Below, piece after piece: positions 9,931 through 32,396 of a stretch of 54,697 nt of DNA. Under the pieces are notes generated by a model. It was not told where the DNA came from. It ran no database searches and saw nothing but the letters and a program-made list of their open reading frames with translations. Where the stretch lies: contig NZ_AYKG01000016.1 in NCBI RefSeq assembly GCF_003788585.1, positions 1 to 54,697 on the forward strand, given 5' to 3'. How positions within the stretch are numbered: position 1 is the stretch's first letter; the number at the start of each line of letters is the position of its first letter. The stretch is from Salinisphaera japonica YTM-1 (GTDB lineage: Bacteria > Pseudomonadota > Gammaproteobacteria > Nevskiales > Salinisphaeraceae). Position numbers and translations under genes: made by a program.

Positions 9931-9955
9931 GTCCGCAAATGAACGCGAATAAAAC
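9931..9955. repeat. Solo end of the CGCRAAT repeat family
   Basis: The words TCCGCAAATG and AACGCGAAT follow GTCCGC, matching one end of the elements at 22628 and 30721. No inverted partner is seen nearby. The rest of 9640-9990 shows no gene, only a short GGGC-GAAA-GCCC hairpin near 9758-9773. Confidence 0.5.
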
Positions 9956-21232: not shown

Positions 21233-22597
21233 ATGTCCGCTCCTTCGCAATCCGGTGGCGCGTCGATCACCGACGAACGCCAACTCGTCGAATATTTCGA
21301 GAACGCCTGCAAGCCGCCCAGTCGCTGGCGTTTGGGTACCGAACACGAAAAATTCGTTTTCGATCGCGAGACCCTACGCCCGCTGCCCTATGAAGGTGAC
21401 CAGAGCATCTCGGCCTTTCTCGAGAAGCTGACCCGCTTTGGCTGGACGCCGATGCAGGAAAACGGACGCACGGTTGCCCTGGAAATGGGTGATTGTCATA
21501 TCACGCTGGAGCCGGGCGGCCAGCTCGAGCTGGCGGGCGCGCCGCTCTATACCATCCACGAGACCTGCGACGAGATCCATACCCATCTGCGCCAGGTCAA
21601 GGAAGTGGCCGCGGACATGAACGTGGGCCTGATCGGCCTGGGCTTTCAGCCCAAGTGGTCGCGCGCCGAGTCGCCCTGGATGCCCAAGGAACGCTACGAG
21701 ATCATGGGCAACTACATGCCCAAGGTCGGCAATCTCGGCCTGGACATGATGCTGCGCACCTCGACCGTACAGGTGAATATCGACTACGGCTCGGAAAGTG
21801 ACATGATCAAGAAGTTCCGGGTCGGCCTGGCGCTTCAACCGATCGCCACCGCGCTGTTTGCCAACTCGCCGTTCACCGAGGGCAAGCCCAACGGTTTCGT
21901 CTCGTATCGCAGCCAGATCTGGACCGATACCGATCCCGATCGCTGCGGCATGCTCGACTGGGTGTTCGAAGACGAGATGGGATTCGAGCGGTACAAGGAT
22001 TTCGCGCTCGACGTGCCGATGTATTTCGTCTACCGCGACGGCCATTACATCGATGCCGCCGGCCAGTCATTTCGAGACTTCATGGCCGGCAAGCTGCCCG
22101 CCCTGCCCGGTGAGCGCCCGGTGATGAGCGACTGGGACGACCATTTGACCACGTTGTTTCCCGAAGTGCGCCTCAAGCGTTTCATGGAAATGCGCGGCGC
22201 TGACGGCGGCCCGTGGCGCCGTCTGTGTGCCCTGCCCGCGCTGTGGGCCGGGCTGTGCTACGACAGCACCGCCCTGGACGAAGCCTGGGCGCTGGTCGCC
22301 GATTTCACGCCCGCCGAACGCAACCACCTGCGAGACCAGGCCCCGATCCACGGCTTGGCCACCCCGTTCCGTGGCGCCACGATGGGTGGTATCGCCCGCG
22401 AAGCCGTGGCGATCGCCCAGCGCGGTCTCTCGCGCCGCGCCAATCTGGACGGCCAGGACCGCGACGAGGCCATGTACCTGGATCAGCTGGCCGAAATTGC
22501 CGAAACCGGCATCACCCCGGCCGAACACCTGCTATCGCTCTACGAAGGCCGCTGGAACCAATCCGTGGACCCGGTCTTTCACGAGTTCGCCTACTGA
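21233..22597 (+). CDS. gshA: Glutamate-cysteine ligase, plant/proteobacterial type
   Basis: First step of glutathione synthesis: ATP-dependent joining of glutamate and cysteine. The 454-residue sequence belongs to the plant-like class, not the E. coli class: SRWRLGTEHEKF, EPGGQLELAGAPLYTIHETCDEI, MPKERYEIMGNYMPK and HGLATPFRG are its signatures. ATG at 21233 has GGAGACC upstream; the longer open frame is ignored because it overlaps ubiA's divergent start. It is the last gene before the large repeat array. No gshB in the window. Confidence 0.93.
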   Translation: MSAPSQSGGASITDERQLVEYFENACKPPSRWRLGTEHEKFVFDRETLRPLPYEGDQSISAFLEKLTRFGWTPMQENGRTVALEMGDCHITLEPGGQLELAGAPLYTIHETCDEIHTHLRQVKEVAADMNVGLIGLGFQPKWSRAESPWMPKERYEIMGNYMPKVGNLGLDMMLRTSTVQVNIDYGSESDMIKKFRVGLALQPIATALFANSPFTEGKPNGFVSYRSQIWTDTDPDRCGMLDWVFEDEMGFERYKDFALDVPMYFVYRDGHYIDAAGQSFRDFMAGKLPALPGERPVMSDWDDHLTTLFPEVRLKRFMEMRGADGGPWRRLCALPALWAGLCYDSTALDEAWALVADFTPAERNHLRDQAPIHGLATPFRGATMGGIAREAVAIAQRGLSRRANLDGQDRDEAMYLDQLAEIAETGITPAEHLLSLYEGRWNQSVDPVFHEFAY

Positions 22598-22627
22598 TCC
22601 GGCCCGCGGGCGCGTCTTTTGGCGATG

Positions 22628-23563
22628 GTCCGCGAATAAGCGCGAATAAAAGAAAAGCAATCCGCAGATGGACACCGATGGCCGCAGATTGAAAGACAGA
22701 TTGTGCAGGGGTTGTTCGTGCACCGGCACGCTTGATCAGCTAACGACTAATCAGTCGAGAATCTTCTTTTTCATCTGCGGCTGAATGCGCGTATTCAGCC
22801 GCGGGCGTGTCTTTTCAATCGTCCGCGAATGAACGCCAAAAAACGCGAATGAAAGAAAGATGATCCGCAGGCCTTGGTCGATATGGCGAGCTCCGAGCCA
22901 CCCGCTCGGCAGCCCAATAATCAGAAACCTAATCTGTGAAATTTGCGTAATCTGCGGATGCATATCTTGTTGAACCGGTCTTTGATTTCAAACGATCGTC
23001 TTCTTCATCTGCGGCCATCGGCGTTCATCTGCGGATAAATGCCTGTATTCATTCGCGGGGAGGTCTTTTTAATCGTCCGCAAATAAACGCGAATAAAAGA
23101 AAGACGATCCGTGGGTCATGGCCGATACAACGAGCTTTGAGCCACCCGCTCAGTAGCCCAATAATCAAAAACCTAATCGGTAAAGTCTGCGTAATCTGCG
23201 GATGGATATCTTGTTCAATCGGTCTTTGATTTCAGACGATCGTCTTCTTCATCTGCGGATGAATGCCTGTATTCAGCCGCGGGCGCGTCTTTTTAATCGT
23301 CCGCGAATGAACGCAAATAAACGCGAATAAGAGAAAGACGGTCCGCGGAGCTTGGTCGATACGGCGAGCTCCGAGCCACCCGCTCAGTAGCCCAATACTC
23401 AAAAACCTAATCTGTGAAATCTGCGTAATCTGCGGATGGAAAGCTTGTTGAATCGGCGTTCGATTTCAGACGGTTGTCTTCTTCATCTGCGGCCATCGGC
23501 GTTCATCTGCGGATTGTCTTCTCGCCTGTATTCATTTGCGCTTATTCGCGTTGATTCGCGGAC
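22628..23563. repeat. Tandem array of ~250-bp repeat units bounded by inverted ends
   Basis: Four units begin with GTCCGC(G/A)AAT at 22628, 22821, 23075 and 23299 (lengths 193, 254, 224 and 265 bp). Units 2-4 share a core (GGTCGAT..., GAGCCACCCGCTC, AATCTGTGAAATYTGCGTAA, GTCTTCTTCATCTGCGG). Unit 1 has a different centre including a CGACT-AATC-AGTCG hairpin, and unit 3 lacks a 22-bp word. The array starts GTCCGCGAATAAGCGCGAAT and ends with the inverse of the same word (GCGGAC at 23558-23563). No gene is seen within. It fills the whole gshA-queH gap. Confidence 0.85.
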
Positions 23564-23573
23564 AGTGTTTGAC

Positions 23574-24302
23574 TTAGTCGCGCTTGAGCCACGGATATTC
23601 GCCGCGGGCATCGGCGCTGGGTAGCGGCGATTTGACGGCTTCGCGGCCGTAGAACTTGATGCCTTTCTGGATCCGCTCGCGACCCATCTCCTGACGGTGG
23701 CGATTGGTGTCGCGCAGGCTGTAGACACAGCCGCAGTATTCCTGCTGATAGAACGACTCGCGCTTGGCGATCTCGATCATGCGCGCGGCCCCGCCCTTCT
23801 TGCGCCAGTTGAGCGTCCAGTAGGTTACCTCGGGATAACGCGAAGTCGCGCGCACGCCGGCCTCGTTGATCTGCTCCATGTTCTTCCAGCGCGAGATGCC
23901 CAACGTGGATGACACCATGTGATAGCCGTTTTCAGCGGCAAACAGCGCGGTACGCTCGAAGCGCATATCGAAACAGACCGTGCAGCGCCGGCCACGCTCG
24001 GGCGCATCCTCCAGGCCGCGGATACGATCAAACCAGTTGTCGGTATCGTAATCGCCGTCGATATGCGGGATGCCCAGTTCCTCGCAGTAGCGCGTGTCCT
24101 CGGCCTTGCGCATTTCATACTCGGCCTGCGGATGGATGTTCGGGTTATAGAAATACACCGTCACATCGATGCCCGAGGCCTTGACCGCGGCCAGTACTTC
24201 GCCCGCACACGGCGCGCAGCATGAGTGCATGAGCAGCTTTGTGCCGGGTTCGGGCGGCACGAGCGTAGGGCGTTCGTAATCGTCGAGCTTGTACGGGTTC
24301 AT
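23574..24302 (-). CDS. queH: Epoxyqueuosine reductase QueH
   Basis: Reduces epoxyqueuosine to queuosine in tRNA, the final step of queuosine synthesis; a non-orthologous replacement of QueG. The 242-residue DUF208 protein shows metal/Fe-S cysteines HSCCAPC (Cys28, Cys29, Cys32), [10 protein letters not shown] and EYCGCVYS. The family is known to bind a [4Fe-4S] cluster and a second metal. Its stop lies 10 bp from the end of the repeat array and its start is 72 bp from the divergent small membrane gene. Confidence 0.93.
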
Positions 24303-24374
24303 GGCGCGACCTGCCGGGTCAATTAAACGATGCGATAATGGCGCGTATTGTCCGCATTGCAGCGGGCGTCGTCC

Positions 24375-24713
24375 ATGTTTGGCTTCAAGGCAGCGTTTCT
24401 CATGCAGAAAGGCAGTATTTCTCTCGCGATCGTCTGGATGGTCGTCATATCGCTGGTTCTGTTCTGGCTGCCGGTCGCCGGGCCGTTACTGGCAGGCTTT
24501 GTTGGCGGGCGCACCGCCGGCAGCGTCGGCCGCGGTATCTGGGCCGCGATCCTGCCCACCGTCATCCTGTGCCTGATTCTGCTGGGTGCGGGCACCGCCC
24601 TGACCGGCTTGCCCGTAATCGGCGTCATCGCCTCGATCAGCCTGTTCCTGGTCATCGCCATCCAGCTCATCCCGCTGATCGCCGGGGCCATCATCGGCGG
24701 CTTGATGGCCTAG
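24375..24713 (+). CDS. Small membrane protein of unknown function
   Basis: Family not firmly recognised. About 112 residues, mainly hydrophobic: three or four membrane segments and a central glycine-rich motif [15 protein letters not shown], a pattern seen in DUF5518-like small membrane proteins. The start is uncertain: ATG at 24375 is chosen, while 24348 and 24402 are in frame and no clear ribosome-binding site decides. Divergent from queH. It ends 9 bp before the next repeat copy, so queH and this gene are boxed in by repeat DNA. Confidence 0.7.
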
Positions 24714-24722
24714 CTTTTATTC

Positions 24723-24986
24723 GTCCGCGACGTAAAAGAAAAGACAATCCGCAGATTTCGCAGATGACGCAGATTGCTTGGTCGATACGGCGAGCTCCGA
24801 GTTATCGCGCTCACTGGATTAATGATCAAACAAAACTAATCTGTGAAATCTGCGTAATCTGCGGATGAAAATCTTGTTCAATCGGTCTCTGATTCCAGCG
24901 GATCGTCTTTTTCATCTGCGGCCATCGGCGTTCATCTGCGGATAAATGCCTGTATTCCTTCGCGCTTATTCGCGTTCATTTGCGGA
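24723..24986. repeat. Isolated copy of the ~250-bp repeat unit
   Basis: It carries the same core as the array at 22628-23563 (TTGGTCGATACGGCGAGCTC, TAATCTGTGAAATCTGCGTA, CATCTGCGGCCATCGGCGTT), 1.2 kb away across queH. The left end is decayed (GTCCGCGACG), while the right end keeps the inverted CGCGTTCATTTGCGGA word. With the terminator that follows, it occupies the 344 bp between the small membrane gene and ectC; no gene is seen. Confidence 0.8.
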
Positions 24987-24991
24987 TAAAC

Positions 24992-25029
24992 AAAAAGAAA
25001 GGCCCCGATCACTGACCGGGGCCTTTTTT
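24992..25029 (-). terminator. Rho-independent terminator of ectABC (bidirectional)
   Basis: A 9-bp stem AAGGCCCCG/CGGGGCCTT-type hairpin has T-rich runs on both strands. It is 29 bp beyond the ectC stop on the minus strand and can also stop plus-strand transcription from the small membrane gene. Confidence 0.8.
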
Positions 25030-25057
25030 CATCTGATCCGCTAGCAAAAGCGTTGGA

Positions 25058-25447
25058 TCAGTCGTTCGGCGGCACGTACGCGCCGTCTTCGTCGTGGATC
25101 TCACGACCGGTGACGGGCGGGTTGAAGGCACAGACCAGCTTCATCTCGGTCTTGGCTTTCAAGGTGTGCTTGTCGTGGTTGTCCAGCGCGTAGACCGTGC
25201 CCGGCTTGATCTCGAACTCTTCGTTCGTATCGCGGTTCACGATCGTGCCTTCGCCCTGATAACAGAACACGGCTTCGAAGTGGTACTTGTACCACATGTC
25301 GAATTCCAGGCCCGGCGGGAAGGTGGTTTCGTGGAACGAAAAACCCATGCCGTCCTTGGCCAGCAGCCAGCGCACGCTGGTCCAGCCGTCGGGGCTGACG
25401 ACTTCACGGTCGGTGCCACGCAGGTCTTCGGTCTTGATGATCTTCAT
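25058..25447 (-). CDS. ectC: L-ectoine synthase
   Basis: Cyclises N-gamma-acetyl-diaminobutyrate to ectoine, the compatible solute. The 129-residue cupin shows MKIIKTEDLRGTDREV, WTSVRWLLAKDGMGFSFHET, YKYHFEAVFCYQGEGT and GTVYALDNHDKHTLKA, all EctC signatures. Last gene of ectABC, 92 bp after ectB and followed by a terminator. No ectD hydroxylase or ask_ect follows. Confidence 0.97.
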   Translation of the reverse strand: MKIIKTEDLRGTDREVVSPDGWTSVRWLLAKDGMGFSFHETTFPPGLEFDMWYKYHFEAVFCYQGEGTIVNRDTNEEFEIKPGTVYALDNHDKHTLKAKTEMKLVCAFNPPVTGREIHDEDGAYVPPND

Positions 25448-25539
25448 AAGCAGTCCTCTTTGAGGTGTTGTTCTACTGCATCGTACACCCGCGCGACGTG
25501 GTCAGACGCCACGTCGCACGGTTTGTTTTCCGGATGCGA

Positions 25540-26814
25540 TCAGGCCGCGTTCGAGAGCAGGCCGTGCTTGTCGAGCACGGTATGAATCGCCTGTTCGAGC
25601 GTATCCAGGCCTTTCTCGATGTCGTCGTCCGGGCTGATCAACGGCGGCATGACCTTGATCACGTTGTCGTCGGCACCGGCGGTCTCGAGAATCAGATGAT
25701 GCTTGAAGCACTCGGCGGCGATTTCATCGGCCAGCTCGTGCTGCTCGCAGTCGATGCCGATGAAAAATCCGCGGCCGCGCACTTCGGCCTTGAAGCCCGT
25801 CTGCGAAATAATGCCGTCCAGACGCTCCTTGATGCGATCGCTCATGCGCAGCACGTTTTTTTCGAGCTTATCGTCTTTCCAGTAGTGCTCAAGTGCGGCG
25901 ATCGCGGTGATGAAGGCATGGTTGAAGCCACGGAACGTGCCGTTGTGCTCGCCCGGCTCCCAGATATCGTATTCCGGCTTGATCATCGTGATCGCAAGCG
26001 GCGTGCCGTAGCCCGACAAGCTCTTGGACACGGTGATGATATCCGGCGAAATACCGGCCGGCTCGAAGGAGAAGAACGGGCCCGTACGACCCACGCCGGC
26101 CTGGATATCGTCGACGATCAGCAGCATGTCGTGATCACGACAGAGCGTCTCGATCTTCTTCAGCCAGTCGAAATCGGCGACGTTGATGCCGCCCTCGCCC
26201 TGCACCGTCTCGACGATGATCGCGGCCGGCTTCTCGTAGCCCGAGGAGCTGTTTTCGAGCAGCATGCGCAGGTCGTCGGCGGTATCGCGATCCGGGCCGA
26301 AATAGCCCGAGAACGGCACCGGCGAGGAGTGACACAGGCACACGCCGGCACCGGCCCGCTTGGAGGCGTTGCCGGTCACGGCCAGCGCACCGAGCGTCAT
26401 GCCGTGGTAAGCGTTTGTGAAGAACAGCACGCGGTCACGCCCTTTCACCTTGCGCGCGATCTTGAGCGCGGCCTCGACCGCGTTGGTACCGGTCGGCCCC
26501 GGAAACTGGATCTTATAATCCATGCCGCGCGGCTTCATGATCACGTCCTCGAAGGTTTCGAGGAACCGGATCTTGGCGTCCGTGGCCATGTCCAGGCCGT
26601 GGGTGATGCCGTCGGACTCGATGTAGTCCAACAGCGCTTTCTTCATCACGTCGTCGTTATGGCCGTAGTTGATGGCCCCGGCGCCGGAGAAGAAATCCAG
26701 ATATTGGGTGCCGTCTTCCGCGGTCAGCCAGTTGGCTTTACCGGTAGAAAAGACTTTCGGAAATGAACGGACATAGCCGCGGACTTCCGATTCCAAACGA
26801 TTGATTGTTTCCAT
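25540..26814 (-). CDS. ectB: Diaminobutyrate-2-oxoglutarate transaminase
   Basis: Makes L-2,4-diaminobutyrate from aspartate semialdehyde and glutamate, the first step of ectoine synthesis. At 424 residues, PLP lysine is Lys264 in TVSKSLSGYG; LDFFSGAGAINYGHN, GPTGTNAVEAALKIARK and VDDIQAGVGRTG are typical of EctB. It shares aspartate semialdehyde with DapB's pathway, encoded 5.6 kb away. Lies 36 bp after ectA. Confidence 0.97.
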   Translation of the reverse strand: METINRLESEVRGYVRSFPKVFSTGKANWLTAEDGTQYLDFFSGAGAINYGHNDDVMKKALLDYIESDGITHGLDMATDAKIRFLETFEDVIMKPRGMDYKIQFPGPTGTNAVEAALKIARKVKGRDRVLFFTNAYHGMTLGALAVTGNASKRAGAGVCLCHSSPVPFSGYFGPDRDTADDLRMLLENSSSGYEKPAAIIVETVQGEGGINVADFDWLKKIETLCRDHDMLLIVDDIQAGVGRTGPFFSFEPAGISPDIITVSKSLSGYGTPLAITMIKPEYDIWEPGEHNGTFRGFNHAFITAIAALEHYWKDDKLEKNVLRMSDRIKERLDGIISQTGFKAEVRGRGFFIGIDCEQHELADEIAAECFKHHLILETAGADDNVIKVMPPLISPDDDIEKGLDTLEQAIHTVLDKHGLLSNAA

Positions 26815-26850
26815 TAGAAAACTCCTGACTACGCAGGCTGTGCGTCGTAT

Positions 26851-27375
26851 TTAAGAGGAAAGCGCGCTGACGGCATCGGCGTCAAATGGCCCGATACGAA
26901 ACAGAATCTCCGGCTCGTGGGGGTCGTGCGGTTCGCCTTCGTCGAAAGCATCGAACAGCTCGGCCGAAAACAACTCGGTTTCGTCGATACGGGCGTTCAG
27001 ACGACGCGCCAATCCACGGAACAGCCCTTGGGAAGGCTCGTTAGTCGGCCCGACGGTGGTATCCAGATAGCGCACATCGGCACAGGCCGGTCGCTTGAGG
27101 ATCTCGGCGAGCATGCGCGTGGCAAGCCCTTTGCCGCGCCCGGCCTGGGCCACACCGACCTGCCAGACAAACAGCGTCTCGGGATCGGCCGGCAACAGAT
27201 AGCCGGAGATAAAGCCGCCCAGCTCGCCGTCGATTTCAGCGACCACGCTCGTGCCGGCGTGGTGTTCGCCGATGAGCATATAGGCATAGGCCGAGTTGAT
27301 ATCAAGCACGCCCAGGCGATGAACAAGCGTGAGGATGCCGGCCCCGTCTTCCTTGCCCGGCGGTCGAAAGATCAC
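26851..27375 (-). CDS. ectA: L-2,4-diaminobutyrate N-acetyltransferase
   Basis: GNAT enzyme that acetylates diaminobutyrate, second step of ectoine synthesis. DINSAYAYMLIGEHHAGTSVVAE, WQVGVAQAGRGKGLATRML (acetyl-CoA loop) and TTVGPTNEPSQGLFRGLAR are EctA signatures. The start is unusual: no ATG precedes the conserved domain within the open frame. The GTG at 27375, with GGAAG just upstream, gives 174 residues beginning right at the domain, and fits a start site downstream of the candidate -10 at 27437-27442. An upstream non-ATG start would add residues similar in length to the tail of other EctA proteins. Confidence 0.85.
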   Translation of the reverse strand: MIFRPPGKEDGAGILTLVHRLGVLDINSAYAYMLIGEHHAGTSVVAEIDGELGGFISGYLLPADPETLFVWQVGVAQAGRGKGLATRMLAEILKRPACADVRYLDTTVGPTNEPSQGLFRGLARRLNARIDETELFSAELFDAFDEGEPHDPHEPEILFRIGPFDADAVSALSS

Positions 27376-27436
27376 GTCTTCCGACGAGGGGTGATCCGAT
27401 TTAGAAATGGTCTTTTCTGATTCGAATGATGCCCCG

Positions 27437-27465
27437 AGTATAACGAGTCGCGCGTACTCGTGCTG
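27437..27465 (-). promoter_or_regulatory. Candidate ectABC promoter with dyad
   Basis: On the minus strand TATACT (27437-27442) is a good -10 but the -35 region (27460-27465) is poor, as in sigmaS-type or activator-dependent promoters. The dyad CGAGT-N7-ACTCG (27444-27460) fills the space just upstream and could be an operator. Osmotic control is inferred from the genes only. Confidence 0.35.
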
Positions 27466-27487
27466 CGCGCGCGACCCGTGAGATGCC

Positions 27488-30400
27488 CTAAGCGCTGACT
27501 TCGGCCTGGATCGATTGCAGGGAATAGACATCCAGCGCGCGTTCGTCGGACAGCGCCGTGGCGCTGGCGAGCCCGCCGGCGATCGTCGTGAAATAGCTCA
27601 CCTTGTAGCGCAGTGCGGTCATGCGGATCGAGCGCGATTCCTCGATAGCCCGCTTGCCCTCGGTGGTATTGACCACCAGCGCAAATTCGCCGTTCTTGAT
27701 CATATCCACGATATGCGGCCGGCCTTCCTTGACCTTGTTGGCGATCTGGCATTCGATGCCGGCCTCGGTGATCACGCGCGCCGTACCGCGGGTAGCCGCA
27801 AGTGAAAACCCGGCCGCGACCAGTTCGCGCGCCATGTTGACCGCGAGCGGCTTGTCGGCATCGCGAACCGTGATCAACGCCAGGCCGGGCGGCGTGGGCA
27901 GGCCGACACCGCTTGCCAGCTGTGACTTGGCAAACGCTTCGCCGAACGTCTTGCCCACGCCCATGACCTCGCCGGTGGATTTCATTTCCGGGCCGAGCAG
28001 CGGATCCACGGTCGGGAATTTGGAGAACGGGAACACCGCCTCCTTGACCGCGTAGTGCGGAATACGACGCTCATCGCCAGCGTTCTGGCTCACCAGGCTC
28101 TGGCCGGCCATGCAACGCGCCGCGATCTTGGCCAGCGGCATGCCGGTGGCCTTGGACACGAAGGGCACCGTGCGCGAGGCCCGCGGATTCACTTCCAGCA
28201 GATAGACTTCACCCGCGCGGATGGCGAACTGTACGTTCATCAGGCCCACCACCGACAGGCCACGGGCCAATGCCCCGGTCTGTCGCCGGACCTCGTCGAG
28301 GACCGTGTCGTCCAGGGAATACGGCGGCAGGCTGCAGGCCGAGTCACCCGAGTGCACGCCGGCCTGTTCGATATGCTCCATGATGCCGCCGATAAAGACA
28401 TCGGTGCCGTCACAGATGGCATCCACGTCCAGCTCGATCGCGTCCTCGAGGAAACGATCAAGCAAAACCGGCGAGTCCGGAGAAACCTTCACCGCGGCCG
28501 ACATATAGCGCTGCAGATCCTCCGGCCCGTAGACGATCTCCATGGCCCGGCCGCCCAGCACATACGACGGACGCACGACCATGGGAAAGCCGACCTCTTC
28601 GGCCAGGCGCATGGCCTCGGCCTCGGAGCGTGCCGAGCGGTTGGCCGGCTGTTTCAGGCCCAGTTTGTTGACCAGGTTGAGGAAACGATCACGATCCTCG
28701 GCCAGGTCGATGGAATCCGGTGTGGTGCCGATGATCGGCGCGCCGGCGGCTTCCAGACGACGTGCGAGTTTCAACGGCGTCTGGCCGCCGTACTGAACGA
28801 TCACGCCCTTGGGTTTTTCGATGTCGATGATCGACATCACGTCCTCGAAGGTCAGCGGCTCGAAGTAGAGCCGGTCCGAGGTGTCGTAGTCGGTCGAGAC
28901 GGTTTCCGGGTTGCAGTTGACCATGATGGTTTCATAGCCGTCCTCGCGCATGGCGAGCGCGGCATGCACGCAGCAATAATCGAATTCGATACCCTGGCCA
29001 ATGCGATTGGGCCCGCCGCCCAGCACCATGATCTTGTCGCGATCACTGGGCGCGGCCTCGCATTCGTCGTCATAGGTCGAGTACTGATAGGCCGTGGCCG
29101 TCGGGAACTCGGCCGCACAGGAATCCACGCGCTTGTAAACCGGCACAATGCCCTGGGCCAGACGCGCACGGCGTACGGCGAACTCGTCGCAGCCGAGCAG
29201 GGTTGCCAAGCGTAGATCCGAAAAGCCCTTGCGCTTGTAGGCCCGCAAGGTGTCGCTGTCCAGATCGCCGATGGTCGAGGTGGCCAACTCGCCTTCCATC
29301 TCGATCAGCTCTTCGATTTGATCGAGAAACCAGGGGTCGACATGCGTGAGCGCGTGCACATCGGCCACCGTGAATCCGGCCCGGAACGCATCGCCGATGT
29401 ACCACATCCGGTCATAGCGCGGTGTGGACAGCTCGCCGCGCAGGGTGTCCTTGGTCGCATCGGTGGATACATCATCGAGCTTCGGCTCAAAGCCGTCCGA
29501 GCCGATCTCCAGGCTACGCATGGCCTTGTGCAGCGACTCCTGGAAGTTGCGCCCGATGGCCATCGCCTCGCCCACCGATTTCATCTGGGTGGTCAGGCGA
29601 TCATCCGCGGCCGGGAACTTCTCGAAGGTGAAGCGCGGCATCTTGGTGACGACATAATCGATCGATGGCTCGAACGAGGCAGGGGTCGCGCCGCCGGTGA
29701 TCTCGTTGTCCAGCTCGTCGAGCGTATAGCCCACGGCCAGCTTGGCCGCGACCTTGGCGATCGGAAAGCCTGTTGCCTTGGAGGCCAACGCGGAGGATCG
29801 AGAAACACGCGGGTTCATCTCGATGACGATCATGTCGCCCGTGTCCGGGTCGATGGCGAACTGGACGTTCGAGCCGCCGGTATCCACGCCGATCTTGCGC
29901 AGGCAGGCGATGGAGGCATCGCGCATGACCTGATACTCGCGATCGGTCAGCGTCTGGGCCGGGGCCACGGTGATCGAGTCGCCGGTGTGTACGCCCATCG
30001 CATCGACGTTTTCGATGGCACAGATGATGATGCAGTTATCGGCGTGATCCCGCACGACCTCCATCTCGTATTCTTTCCAACCCAACACGCTCTGCTCGAG
30101 CAGTACTTCGTTGGTCGGCGAGAGCTCCAGGCCACGAGAGAGCAGATCCTCGAACTCTTCCTTGTTATAGGCGATGCCGCCGCCGGTGCCGCCCAGCGTG
30201 AACGACGGCCGCATGATGATCGGAAAACCGATGCCGGCCTGCACGGTCTCGCCCTCGGCCATGGTGTTCACGGTCTTCGAGGCCGGGGTCTTTAACCCGA
30301 TTTCGGTCATCGCCTCACGGAACGCGGTGCGGTCCTCGGCCATATCGATGGCATCGCGCGAGGCGCCGATCATCTCCACGCCGTGTTGTTCCAGCACACC

Positions 30401-30715
30401 GTTGTAGTAGAGATCCAGCGCACAGTTCAGAGCGGTCTGGCCGCCCATCGTGGGCAGCAACGCGTCCGGCTTTTCGACGTCGATGATCTTGGCCACCGTC
30501 TGCCAGTCGATCGGCTCGATATAGACCGCATCGGCTGTTTCCGGATCGGTCATGATCGTGGCCGGGTTCGAGTTGACCAAGACCACACGAAAGCCCTCGT
30601 CCTTGAGCGCCTTGCAGGCCTGCATGCCGGAATAGTCGAACTCGCAGGCCTGGCCGATCACGATCGGCCCGGCGCCGATGACCAGGATGCTTTTTAGATC
30701 TGTGCGCTTGGGCAT
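27488..30715 (-). CDS. carB: Carbamoyl-phosphate synthase large subunit
   Basis: Makes carbamoyl phosphate from bicarbonate, ATP and ammonia channelled from CarA; it feeds pyrimidine and arginine synthesis (argF is at the other end of the window). At 1,075 residues it has two ATP-grasp halves, each opening with a GAGPIVIGQ- or [10 protein letters not shown]-type motif, a central oligomerisation part and a C-terminal MGS-like regulatory domain. The ATG at 30715 matches the family start ([11 protein letters not shown]). The sequence before it (CTATCTCCT) has no Shine-Dalgarno and comes next to a repeat end at 30721, suggesting the native upstream region was replaced. Confidence 0.97.
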
Positions 30716-30720
30716 AGGAG

Positions 30721-31175
30721 ATAGTCCGCAAATGAACGCAAATGCGCGCAAATGATCACAATCAAATCCGCGACGAGTCGTCGTAAGATTTTACGATACG
30801 TTTGACGCCCAGACGGGGCGTCCCGAAATTCAATATCAAGCCCACTGAAATACCGGTGGCTTGCAGATAATTCATCAATTGCGCTTCGTGTACGGCTGTA
30901 ATACTCGAAAGCGCTTTGATTTCCACGATCAGTCTTTGCTCGATAACCAGATCAGCAATGTAATGACCGACAACCGCGCCTTTGTAACTTACATCCAGTG
31001 CCTTCTGCCGCTCGAAGGCCGGCCCAGCCTGGGCAAGCTCAAGCGCCAGCGCATTCTCGTAAACCGCTTCTAAGAACCCGGCGCCTAACGTGTTACTGAC
31101 CGCAAAAGCACAGCCAATGACACGCTCAGAAATTGTCTTTTCATTTGCGCTCATTGGCGTGCATTCGCGGACTAT
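30721..31175. mobile_element. Inverted-repeat-bounded element carrying a GxxExxY gene
   Basis: The ends 30721-30755 and 31141-31175 are 35-bp inverted repeats identical at 31 of 35 positions, both starting ATAGTCCGC and made of three 10-bp words (NNCGCNAATG). Everything between is the GxxExxY gene and its short flanks. The element separates carA from carB. The right repeat contains the GxxExxY start codon and the carA stop (TAG at 31172-31174); the left repeat begins 5 bp from the carB start. No target duplication or transposase is visible, so mobility is inference. Confidence 0.6.
30762..31154 (-). CDS. GxxExxY family protein (PD-(D/E)XK-like)
   Basis: A 130-residue protein of the GxxExxY family (PDDEXK_3 superfamily). 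It is named for G26-x-x-E29-x-x-Y32 in [13 protein letters not shown]. It also has a nuclease-like core: Asp68 in YIADLVIE, Glu78-x-Lys80 in IVEIKAL and QLMNYL at 92-97, matching the D...ExK...QxxxY pattern. All key residues are present, so the gene looks intact. Activity and role are unknown. The first four codons (MSAN) lie in the inverted repeat. It is 17 bp after carA and 46 bp before carB on the same strand, so it is probably co-transcribed with them. Confidence 0.85.
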
Positions 31176-32299
31176 TGTCTTTCGTGAATCACAGCCATGA
31201 AGCGCGCAAAGATCGGTGCGACGTCATGCGGGCCCGGGCTGGCCTCCGGGTGGCCCTGGAACGAAAAGACCGGGGCGTCGACGACTTCGATGCCCTGCAG
31301 GGTCTGGTCGAACAACGAGCGATGCGTCACCCGCACCGTGTCCGGCAGGCTGGCCTCGTCGATGGCAAAGCCGTGGTTCTGGCTCGAGATCATCACTTCG
31401 CCGCTGGCCGTGTCGATGACCGGATGATTGGCACCGTGATGGCCGAACTTCATCTTCAGGCTCTTGGCACCGGCGGCCAGGCCCAGAATCTGGTGCCCCA
31501 GACAGATACCGAGTGTCGGCACGCGACGCTCGATCAGCTCACGACAGGTGGCGATCGCGTAATCCAGGGGCTCGGGGTCACCGGGGCCGTTGCCCAGCAG
31601 CACGCCGTCCACACCCAGTGCGAGCACGTCGTCGACCGAGGTTTTGGCCGGTACGACGGTCACCTTGGCGCCGGCGTCCACGAGCTGGCGCAGGATGTTG
31701 TACTTGATACCGTAATCATAGACCGCGACGTGACAAGACGGCTCGGCCGGCGCATGACGATCATTCGGGCCGATCCACGTGCCCTCGGTCCACTCATAGG
31801 ACGCGCGCGTACCCGCATCGGCGGCCAGATCGGCGCCCTTCAGACCGGCAAAGCCGCGAGCGGCCTCGACGGCGGCGGCTTCGTCGATGTTCTCGCCGGC
31901 CACGATGGCCCCGTTCTGGGCACCTTTTTCGCGCAGCAGACGGGTCAGACGGCGGGTGTCGATATCACCGATGCCCACGATGCCGTTGGCTTCGAGATAG
32001 CCGATCAGGCTGTCGTTGGATCGCCAGTTGCTCGGCGCACGCGGAACTTCGCGGATGATCAGGCCGGCCGCCTGGATACGATCGGATTCGATATCCTGAT
32101 CGTTGGTGCCGGTGTTGCCGACGTGCGGATAGGTCAGAGTGACCATCTGCTGTTGGTAGGAGGGATCGGTCAGGATCTCCTGATAGCCGGTCATGGCGGT
32201 ATTGAATACCACCTCGCCGACGGTCCGGCCGTTAGCGCCAATGGCGCGGCCGTGGAAGATACTACCGTCTTCGAGCGCAAGTACGGCTTTGGCGCGCAA
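31172..32299 (-). CDS. carA: Carbamoyl-phosphate synthase small subunit
   Basis: Glutamine amidotransferase subunit that supplies ammonia to CarB. The N-terminal domain ([33 protein letters not shown]) is followed by the class I amidotransferase domain with nucleophile Cys in [12 protein letters not shown] and His/Glu in [13 protein letters not shown]. The start is read as TTG at 32299 because GGAGAG lies 7 bases upstream and the protein then aligns with the family (375 residues); the open frame upstream has no ATG of merit. The TAG stop lies inside the end of the GxxExxY element. Confidence 0.95.
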
Positions 32300-32396
32300 T
32301 ACATCTCTCCAGTCGCTGGATGCCAGTGGGCTGCCCGGAGGCGGCGAGAGTATAGCGGCTTGGCGCCCGGCTCGCCAGCCGTGGCCGCACAAACAA

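Follow-up and report, generated by a model that had tools for sequence, protein, structure and literature searches.

In the 54,697-nt stretch of Salinisphaera japonica YTM-1 DNA analyzed here (the window), a gene for a GxxExxY protein with a PD-(D/E)XK nuclease fold lies between carA and carB, packed between two inverted arrays of a short repeated word. As judged from the flanks of related loci, packaging of GxxExxY genes in inverted word arrays is a family-wide rule, and the bracketed cassettes would be a small selfish element of an apparently undescribed kind that seeds its repeats around bacterial genomes. No account of GxxExxY with repeats was found in the open-access literature searched (subscription journals and preprints lay outside it), and the same search yielded neither a function for GxxExxY nor a source for the words CGCAAAG, CAGATT and CACAGAG. 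We put at about an even chance the reading that a GxxExxY gene and its bracketing arrays form a minimal selfish cassette resembling the REPIN/RAYT systems, with a PD-(D/E)XK nuclease replacing the Y1 transposase.

The features of the carA-carB cassette, and of the gene-less arrays elsewhere in the window, are listed in Table 1. Both arms are 35 nt long and 31 of the 35 positions (89%) are complementary, as the initial annotation had it. The GxxExxY start codon (31152-31154) and the carA stop codon TAG (31172-31174) both fall within the right-hand arm and the carB ATG (30713-30715) stands 5 nt off the other, again as initially annotated. The only listed frame of at least 80 aa between the arms is the PDDEXK_3 gene, in agreement with the claim that a single gene is enclosed. 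This 130-aa frame scores 141.7 bits against TIGR04256 (cut-off 35) and 139.8 against PF13366 PDDEXK_3 (cut-off 22), and with its conserved GxxExxY and D...ExK residues it belongs to the family to which it had been assigned from its letters. No RNA family came near its gathering score across positions 22400-31400 of the window.

Table 1 Cassette, neighboring genes and gene-less arrays in the window
Feature	Position	Strand	Description
Inverted arm adjoining carB	30721..30755	+	Tip GTCCGC, then three CGCAAATG words at 10-bp spacing
Inverted arm adjoining carA	31141..31175	-	Three CGCNAATG words; contains carA stop and GxxExxY start codon
GxxExxY gene, 130 aa, PDDEXK_3 nuclease fold	30762..31154	-	E29/Y32 (GxxExxY), D68, E78, K80
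carA, upstream operon gene	31172..32392	-	Longest open frame (start approximate); stop codon inside arm
carB, downstream gene	27488..30715	-	ATG 5 nt from arm
Intergenic clusters flanking open frame 23574-24302	22629..24987	.	Gene-less units, nested/interleaved AAT-word and GAT-word arrays
One gene-less AAT-word pair	23302..23560	.	Inward arrays 23302-23329 (+) and 23533-23560 (-)
Solo AAT-word array	9934..9951	+	

The words recur well beyond the cassette. With up to two mismatches, the CGCNAATGNNCGCNAATG word pair is found at 21 places in the window, where 1.34 would be expected, a count never reached in 100 shuffles, and six of these matches are GAT-type variants; in the genome as a whole (G000), CGCRAATNNNCGCRAAT occurs 127 times and its reversed control pattern 6 times. 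This genome holds only two GxxExxY genes, the second of which sits at the junction of a split metH and carries another word, so that the statement that GxxExxY goes with NNCGCNAATG is limited to the carAB clade. AAT and GAT arrays are nested or interleaved in this genome, and in the clusters at 22629-24987 of the window the AAT word matches the carAB gene and the GAT word the metH-site gene. These clusters are a mosaic of the two word families, in which one interior segment recurs several times.

In order to score the arms across the family, the upstream flank of each gene was compared with the reverse complement of its downstream flank at 124 of 129 loci, the rest having a flank shorter than 150 nt. 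Scores of at least 25 were reached at 41 of 47 GxxExxY loci chosen without word bias and, among the matches listed, at 69 of 77 loci from a contig scan, compared with 2.5% of 1714 mismatched flank pairs drawn across word classes. At a threshold of 26 or more, 68 of the 77 scan loci remained, again among the matches listed, representing 16 named phyla, with 4 of the 68 lacking a phylum name. An earlier scoring gave at least 30 at 65 of 80 listed scan loci, against maxima of 25 for shuffles and 24 for distant flanks (65 loci). The scan kept 80 loci of at least 570 relatives with search patterns biased to the GAT clade, one alignment combined the window's protein with 43 of these 80, and the class sample contributed 27 new loci out of 53 listed match rows. 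Among 41 relatives, most of the 22 GxxExxY genes were by eye bracketed by words, and in a Sphingomonas replicon CGCGAAG arms enclose a copy situated between fabD and fabG. Terminal inverted repeats around the gene, as expected of an insertion sequence, are usual. The arms scored below 25 at 6 of the 47 unbiased loci and at 8 of the 77 listed scan loci; L157, L163 and L165 have words without a strong inverted pair, and a fusobacterial plasmid copy has no inverted arms, only a direct repeat around the gene. Neighboring genes are mostly co-oriented with GxxExxY (54 of 57 callable upstream, 45 of 52 downstream), a count made without 15 loci whose flanks were short and 36 at which neither side could be called.

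Which word is repeated is set by the clade of the GxxExxY protein, as the protein trees show. Six word classes were distinguished under labels coined here (AAT, GAT, AAG, GAG, GAA and AGGAT), five of which fit C-R-C-N-R-A. On a tree of 49 proteins the word class changes 9 times, compared with a minimum of 23 in 500 shuffles, and when all 125 labelled of 129 rows are used it changes 10 times, compared with at least 29 in 300 shuffles. On the scan tree the host phylum changes 38 times among 73 of the matches listed, and 76 of the 80 listed scan loci are labelled GAT, the clade that the scan favors. Word counts near genes and in distant flanks were 513 and 53 for GAT, 39 and 10 for AAT, 89 and 18 for GAG and 17 and 6 for GAA, with only moderate enrichment for AAG (92 and 39) and AGGAT (26 and 18). 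The period of the arrays was 10 nt in 5 of 5 AAT arms and 8 nt in 7 of 20 AAG and GAG arms, the others having no clear period; for GAT (n=79) it was 9 nt in 36, 10 in 6 and 11 in 1, with no clear period in 36. The expectation that GxxExxY genes elsewhere would be flanked by these repeats was thus upheld for the inverted arms, whereas the word itself is shared only within the carAB clade.

Comparison of operon junctions shows that presence, absence and decay of the cassette vary within one genus. The carA-carB gap measures 448-456 nt in five genomes with the cassette (G000, G003, G006, G008, G010) and 93-111 nt in eight genomes of the same genus without it (G001, G004, G005, G007, G009, G011, G012, G013). 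The empty sites anticipated by the initial annotation therefore exist; no word array occurs in them, apart from lone words in G004 and G007. At 5 of 5 filled sites the carA stop falls within the arm or directly abuts it, as proposed for a stop supplied by the repeat, and in G008 and G010 the arm also encodes the last CarA codons. The gap lengths support the view that a discrete element settled between the two genes, but by eye the native spacer of about 100 nt is absent from filled sites and not merely interrupted. No target-site duplication was evident by eye at carA-carB, at leuD-leuB or at the borders of units in G018 and G025.

Other occupants were found at the same junctions. Between carA and carB, G018 carries a gene-less GAT unit and G002 a 23S-IVP gene (L040:1019-1493) in 30-nt arms of a 7-bp word. 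At metH, G001 retains a broken GxxExxY copy with one arm (77% DNA identity over 243 nt to the metH cassette of the window's genome, E 3e-47), and G004 has by eye a relic arm. The metH junction has been used repeatedly across families of the order, and two kinds of unit have occupied carA-carB. In this and several related families, a pair of adjacent genes, one for the homocysteine domain and one for the remainder, encodes MetH independently of the cassette (L190-L212); the idea that the cassette created the split was rejected, as the same split with short gaps and no cassette occurs in G015, G019, G024, G026, G029 and G030. At the metH junction of G002 (L201), where sister species hold GxxExxY cassettes, a RelB-type antitoxin gene stands with a gene that probably encodes a toxin; such an occupant would make operon junctions landing sites for selfish modules. 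The leuD-leuB gap, readable in 11 of 13 junctions, measures 23-57 nt in six genomes. It reaches 340 nt in G000, where it holds a nested unit, and 481 nt in G008 (L260), where four short AAT-word hairpin units stand in tandem like REPIN clusters; in G002 (151), G010 (188) and G013 (333) the gap is filled by other sequence, in which words occur singly if at all.

Word counts across genomes show that gene-less units sharing these arms are scattered mainly through genomes possessing the matching gene. AAT words number 127, 45, 41, 19 and 15 in the five genomes with a carAB-type gene and 0-11 in the 36 without (P 0.0015 within the genus alone; as the compared genomes are kin, this and the following P values are not strictly independent). 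For GAT words the range is 3-189 where a GAT-type gene is present (12 genomes) and 0-27 where it is absent (29 genomes), and the reversed control is 0 throughout. AAT words are lacking altogether in G018, G025 and G027, which lie outside the genus, carry a GAT-type gene and have 52-111 GAT words. In the class sample (n=229), CACAGAG words occur in 9 of 35 gene-bearing and 5 of 194 other genomes, and CGCAAAG words in 16 of 35 and 14 of 194. Within gene-bearing genomes, with one gene read per genome although several hold more, CACAGAG words are found in 8 of 12 GAG-type and 1 of 9 AAG-type genomes (P 0.016); for CGCAAAG words the bias is the other way, with 8 of 9 AAG-type genomes having them compared with 5 of 12 of the GAG type (P 0.037). 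The reversed control for CACAGAG was non-empty in G103 (7 vs 87), G173 (5 vs 7) and G176 (1 vs 8). At least six words without any gene found were seen in seven genomes of the class sample (G164, G152, G121, G170, G171, G094, G176) and in two relatives (G002, G033), the richest having 42 (G164) and 23 (G152) CGCAAAG words and 27 GAT words each (G002, G033); G005 and G020 have a gene with only 3 and 6 words.

The dispersed repeats are organized as inverted pairs, as in REPINs. Among the matches listed (97 of 127 in G000 and 79 of 79 in G018), opposed neighboring arrays within 600 nt of one another pointed inward in 32 cases and outward in none, and 13 more neighbors ran in the same direction. 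Most of these inward pairs are gene-less, and one is the gene-bearing cassette of G018. When 24 gene-less units of G018 and G025 were compared, they had arms in common and mostly unrelated interiors; blastn between the interiors matched the two units of L189 (73% over 75 nt), L271 with L273 (37 nt), L277 with L278 (22 nt) and one overlapping duplicate. These units span 62-299 nt, a single 517-nt row being a mis-paired span. A tblastn search of 22 GxxExxY proteins against 20 loci and the window cluster found no convincing piece of the gene in gene-less units (best E 0.025), and their interpretation as deletion derivatives of the MITE kind was set aside. Of the suggested autonomous and non-autonomous relation, what stands is the existence of gene-less pairs whose word number follows the matching gene; descent by deletion is not evident.

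The catalytic residues of the GxxExxY protein are nearly invariant. The E and Y of the motif are invariant in 129 of 129 rows, one of them a duplicate, and the active-site D, E and K are kept in 126, 129 and 126. Rare changes of K to R, or of D to N or G, occur at L021, L022, L025, L144 and L145, L067 being the same place as L021. The three K-to-R rows are two loci (G005 and G007) whose genomes hold 3 and 16 GAT words, a tie between altered copies and few words that is suggestive only. Values of dN/dS between 0.08 and 0.32 in measurable pairs show purifying selection on the gene as estimated from coding sequences, one near-identical pair with too few changes giving 0.66. An AlphaFold2 model of the window's protein (mean pLDDT 92.3) had its best fold match in SSO0001 (E 3e-4, TM 0.57 on the query), which we take to be a Cas4, followed by LHK-Exo and AddAB; the predicted fold is thus closest to Cas4/RecB-type nucleases. 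No relative of solved structure was found by sequence search. The Cas4b profile matched weakly (E 0.05), and as this was the sole match, membership of a known defence family was dismissed. A passage in PMC8934634 places a CRISPR-associated reverse transcriptase beside a gene named cas4 by one program and GxxExxY by another, which agrees with a Cas4-like fold. Queried with the window's protein (E 1e-5), 72,556 plasmid records included 8 that matched and 50,697 phage records none, on which phage or plasmid cargo was dismissed. GxxExxY genes are present in 15 of 41 relatives, the window's own genome included (22 genes), and in 35 of 229 genomes of the class-wide sample.

The same anatomy surrounds an unrelated family. 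TIGR02436 (four helix bundle protein) was found in 42 of 229 class genomes, and 3 of 3 loci checked also match PF05635 23S_rRNA_IVP. From 51 rows, 30 such loci were sampled (L220-L249): inverted arms scored above each of 50 shuffles in 29, and 27 of these 29 have a 7-nt period, with no other period in any. As the 23S-IVP protein is not known as a nuclease, a nuclease may not be the maker of the arms; this parallel is the main ground for doubting that cassettes are the work of the nuclease alone, and at the same time the most novel lead. One TIGR02436 protein (L220) has a sub-threshold match (E 2e-5) to bAvd, presumably an accessory fold of diversity-generating retroelements, a hint at a possible reverse-transcription step. 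In its main text, PMC4692102 describes Xanthomonas GGGAATC heptamers, whose convergent pairs number 70 in one genome and 75 in another, treats them as G-quadruplex repeats and contains neither "S23" nor "four helix"; by analogy, these pairs look like a gene-less form of the 23S-IVP class.

Under the cassette reading, the PD-(D/E)XK protein would bind its own words, each about one helical turn, probably as an oligomer, and would nick or trim the DNA at the outward-facing tips, which read TCCRC in the AAT and GAT classes. Gene-bearing and gene-less cassettes alike would then enter gaps between co-transcribed genes, by being copied or moved there, and host repair would seal the junctions; the host operon would express the GxxExxY gene, and arms bearing stop and start codons may make the insertion tolerable. 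The combination of words specific to a clade, copy numbers that go with the matching gene, inward-pointing arrays and polymorphic presence of the cassette fits dispersal in trans. From these patterns we infer mobilization in trans by the GxxExxY protein, as well as its binding of words and its cutting of DNA. No transposition event, target duplication or excision was seen in the genomes compared. Against this reading stand the loss of the native spacer at filled carA-carB sites, which simple insertion leaves unexplained, words without a gene in several genomes and few words with a gene in some, the 13 same-direction neighbors among the listed matches, the non-empty reversed control for CACAGAG, and the modest enrichment of AAG and AGGAT words.

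The 23S-IVP loci bear most directly on a different account, in which the arrays owe both their making and their movement to the host or to an enzyme from another locus (slippage, template switching or a reverse transcriptase) and the GxxExxY and 23S-IVP proteins are array-binding passengers, for example stabilizing ones. The shared anatomy at 29 of 30 23S-IVP loci, 27 with 7-bp words, the mostly unrelated gene-less interiors and the words without a gene in some genomes would all be expected from such passengers. We nevertheless consider it unlikely, as the word changes with the protein clade and its number follows the matching gene, a dependence that a passenger would not enforce unless it were needed for spread. 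The lost spacer, in turn, is what would follow if GxxExxY were a homing-type endonuclease that cuts cassette-free alleles at fixed operon junctions, with recombination copying the cassette in and dispersed arrays arising as by-products. Repeated use of the metH junction across families of the order, occupation of carA-carB by two kinds of unit, and the gain, decay and loss visible at metH point the same way. Homing needs one target sequence, yet related proteins take their words to differing junctions (e.g., fabD-fabG) and the loci share arms, not flanks, which makes this account quite improbable.

Least of all do we expect a domesticated host function, in which the protein would act in repair, recombination or the nucleoid and the arrays would be its genomic sites, much as Chi serves AddAB/RecBCD. 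The predicted fold near AddAB and Cas4 nucleases, the purifying selection and the rarity in plasmid and phage records are consistent with it; the patchy distribution among relatives and class members, the broken copy and relic in sister species, and arrays that form inward pairs instead of evenly spread, oriented single sites argue against it. The selfish-cassette reading may extend to both families. We propose tentatively, and with more doubt than confidence, a hitherto undescribed superclass of bacterial mobile cassettes, marked by inverted arrays of short words, in which a small cognate protein reads words and spreads any DNA between inward arrays into operon gaps, the GxxExxY nuclease serving 8-, 9- or 10-bp words and the 23S-IVP four-helix bundle 7-bp words. 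If this is true, the pairing of words with protein clades would amount to a natural DNA-recognition code for a PD-(D/E)XK nuclease. GxxExxY (TIGR04256) occurs across bacteria. The link between word and clade gives protein and words a testable role and provides natural nuclease/word pairs from which recognition could be read; it also suggests at least two origins of REPIN-like dispersal, with unrelated enzymes, and the 23S-IVP parallel may supply a cognate protein for over-represented bacterial heptamer repeats.

Among known systems, the closest likeness is to REP/REPIN sequences and their RAYT (TnpA-REP) proteins, for which excerpts of PMC3116915 propose dispersal of REPINs in trans by RAYTs. 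According to the same excerpts, those systems also have one or few chromosomal genes beside short repeats that recur elsewhere, gene-less, in inverted pairs; they comprise several classes of repeat, each served by a protein of its own, and form tandem clusters. Here, too, the gene is bracketed by repeats dispersed in the same genome. RAYTs are HUH Y1 transposases, whereas the protein here is PDDEXK_3 by profile and fold and not a Y1 (HUH) tyrosine transposase; as its enzyme comes from another superfamily, this is not a RAYT system. REP arms are short palindromes and GxxExxY arms are tandem 8-10-bp words, and unlike REPINs the GxxExxY units have mostly unrelated interiors, array spacing of up to about 480 nt and the gene inside operon junctions. 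Insertion sequences and their MITE derivatives resemble the cassette in terminal inverted repeats around a single gene, gene-less copies, and empty and filled sites, but no recognized transposase (DDE, HUH, serine or tyrosine) lies between the arms, no target duplication was evident by eye and no convincing gene remnant was found in gene-less units. The 23S rRNA intervening sequences with IVP (S23), which a passage in PMC4990558 locates in 23S rRNA in their classical form, are likewise small single-gene units in inverted repeats, and genes of TIGR02436/PF05635 lie in word arrays of this anatomy and in one case occupy the carA-carB junction, with an unrelated protein and 7-bp words. The Xanthomonas GGGAATC repeats, as described in the main text of PMC4692102, are similar in their short words and convergent pairs, and their length fits the IVP class and not GxxExxY. 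Cas4/RecB-like nucleases (SSO0001, LHK-Exo, AddAB) provide the best fold matches of the model, but GxxExxY is much smaller (~120 aa) and the neighbors read are mostly host operon genes.
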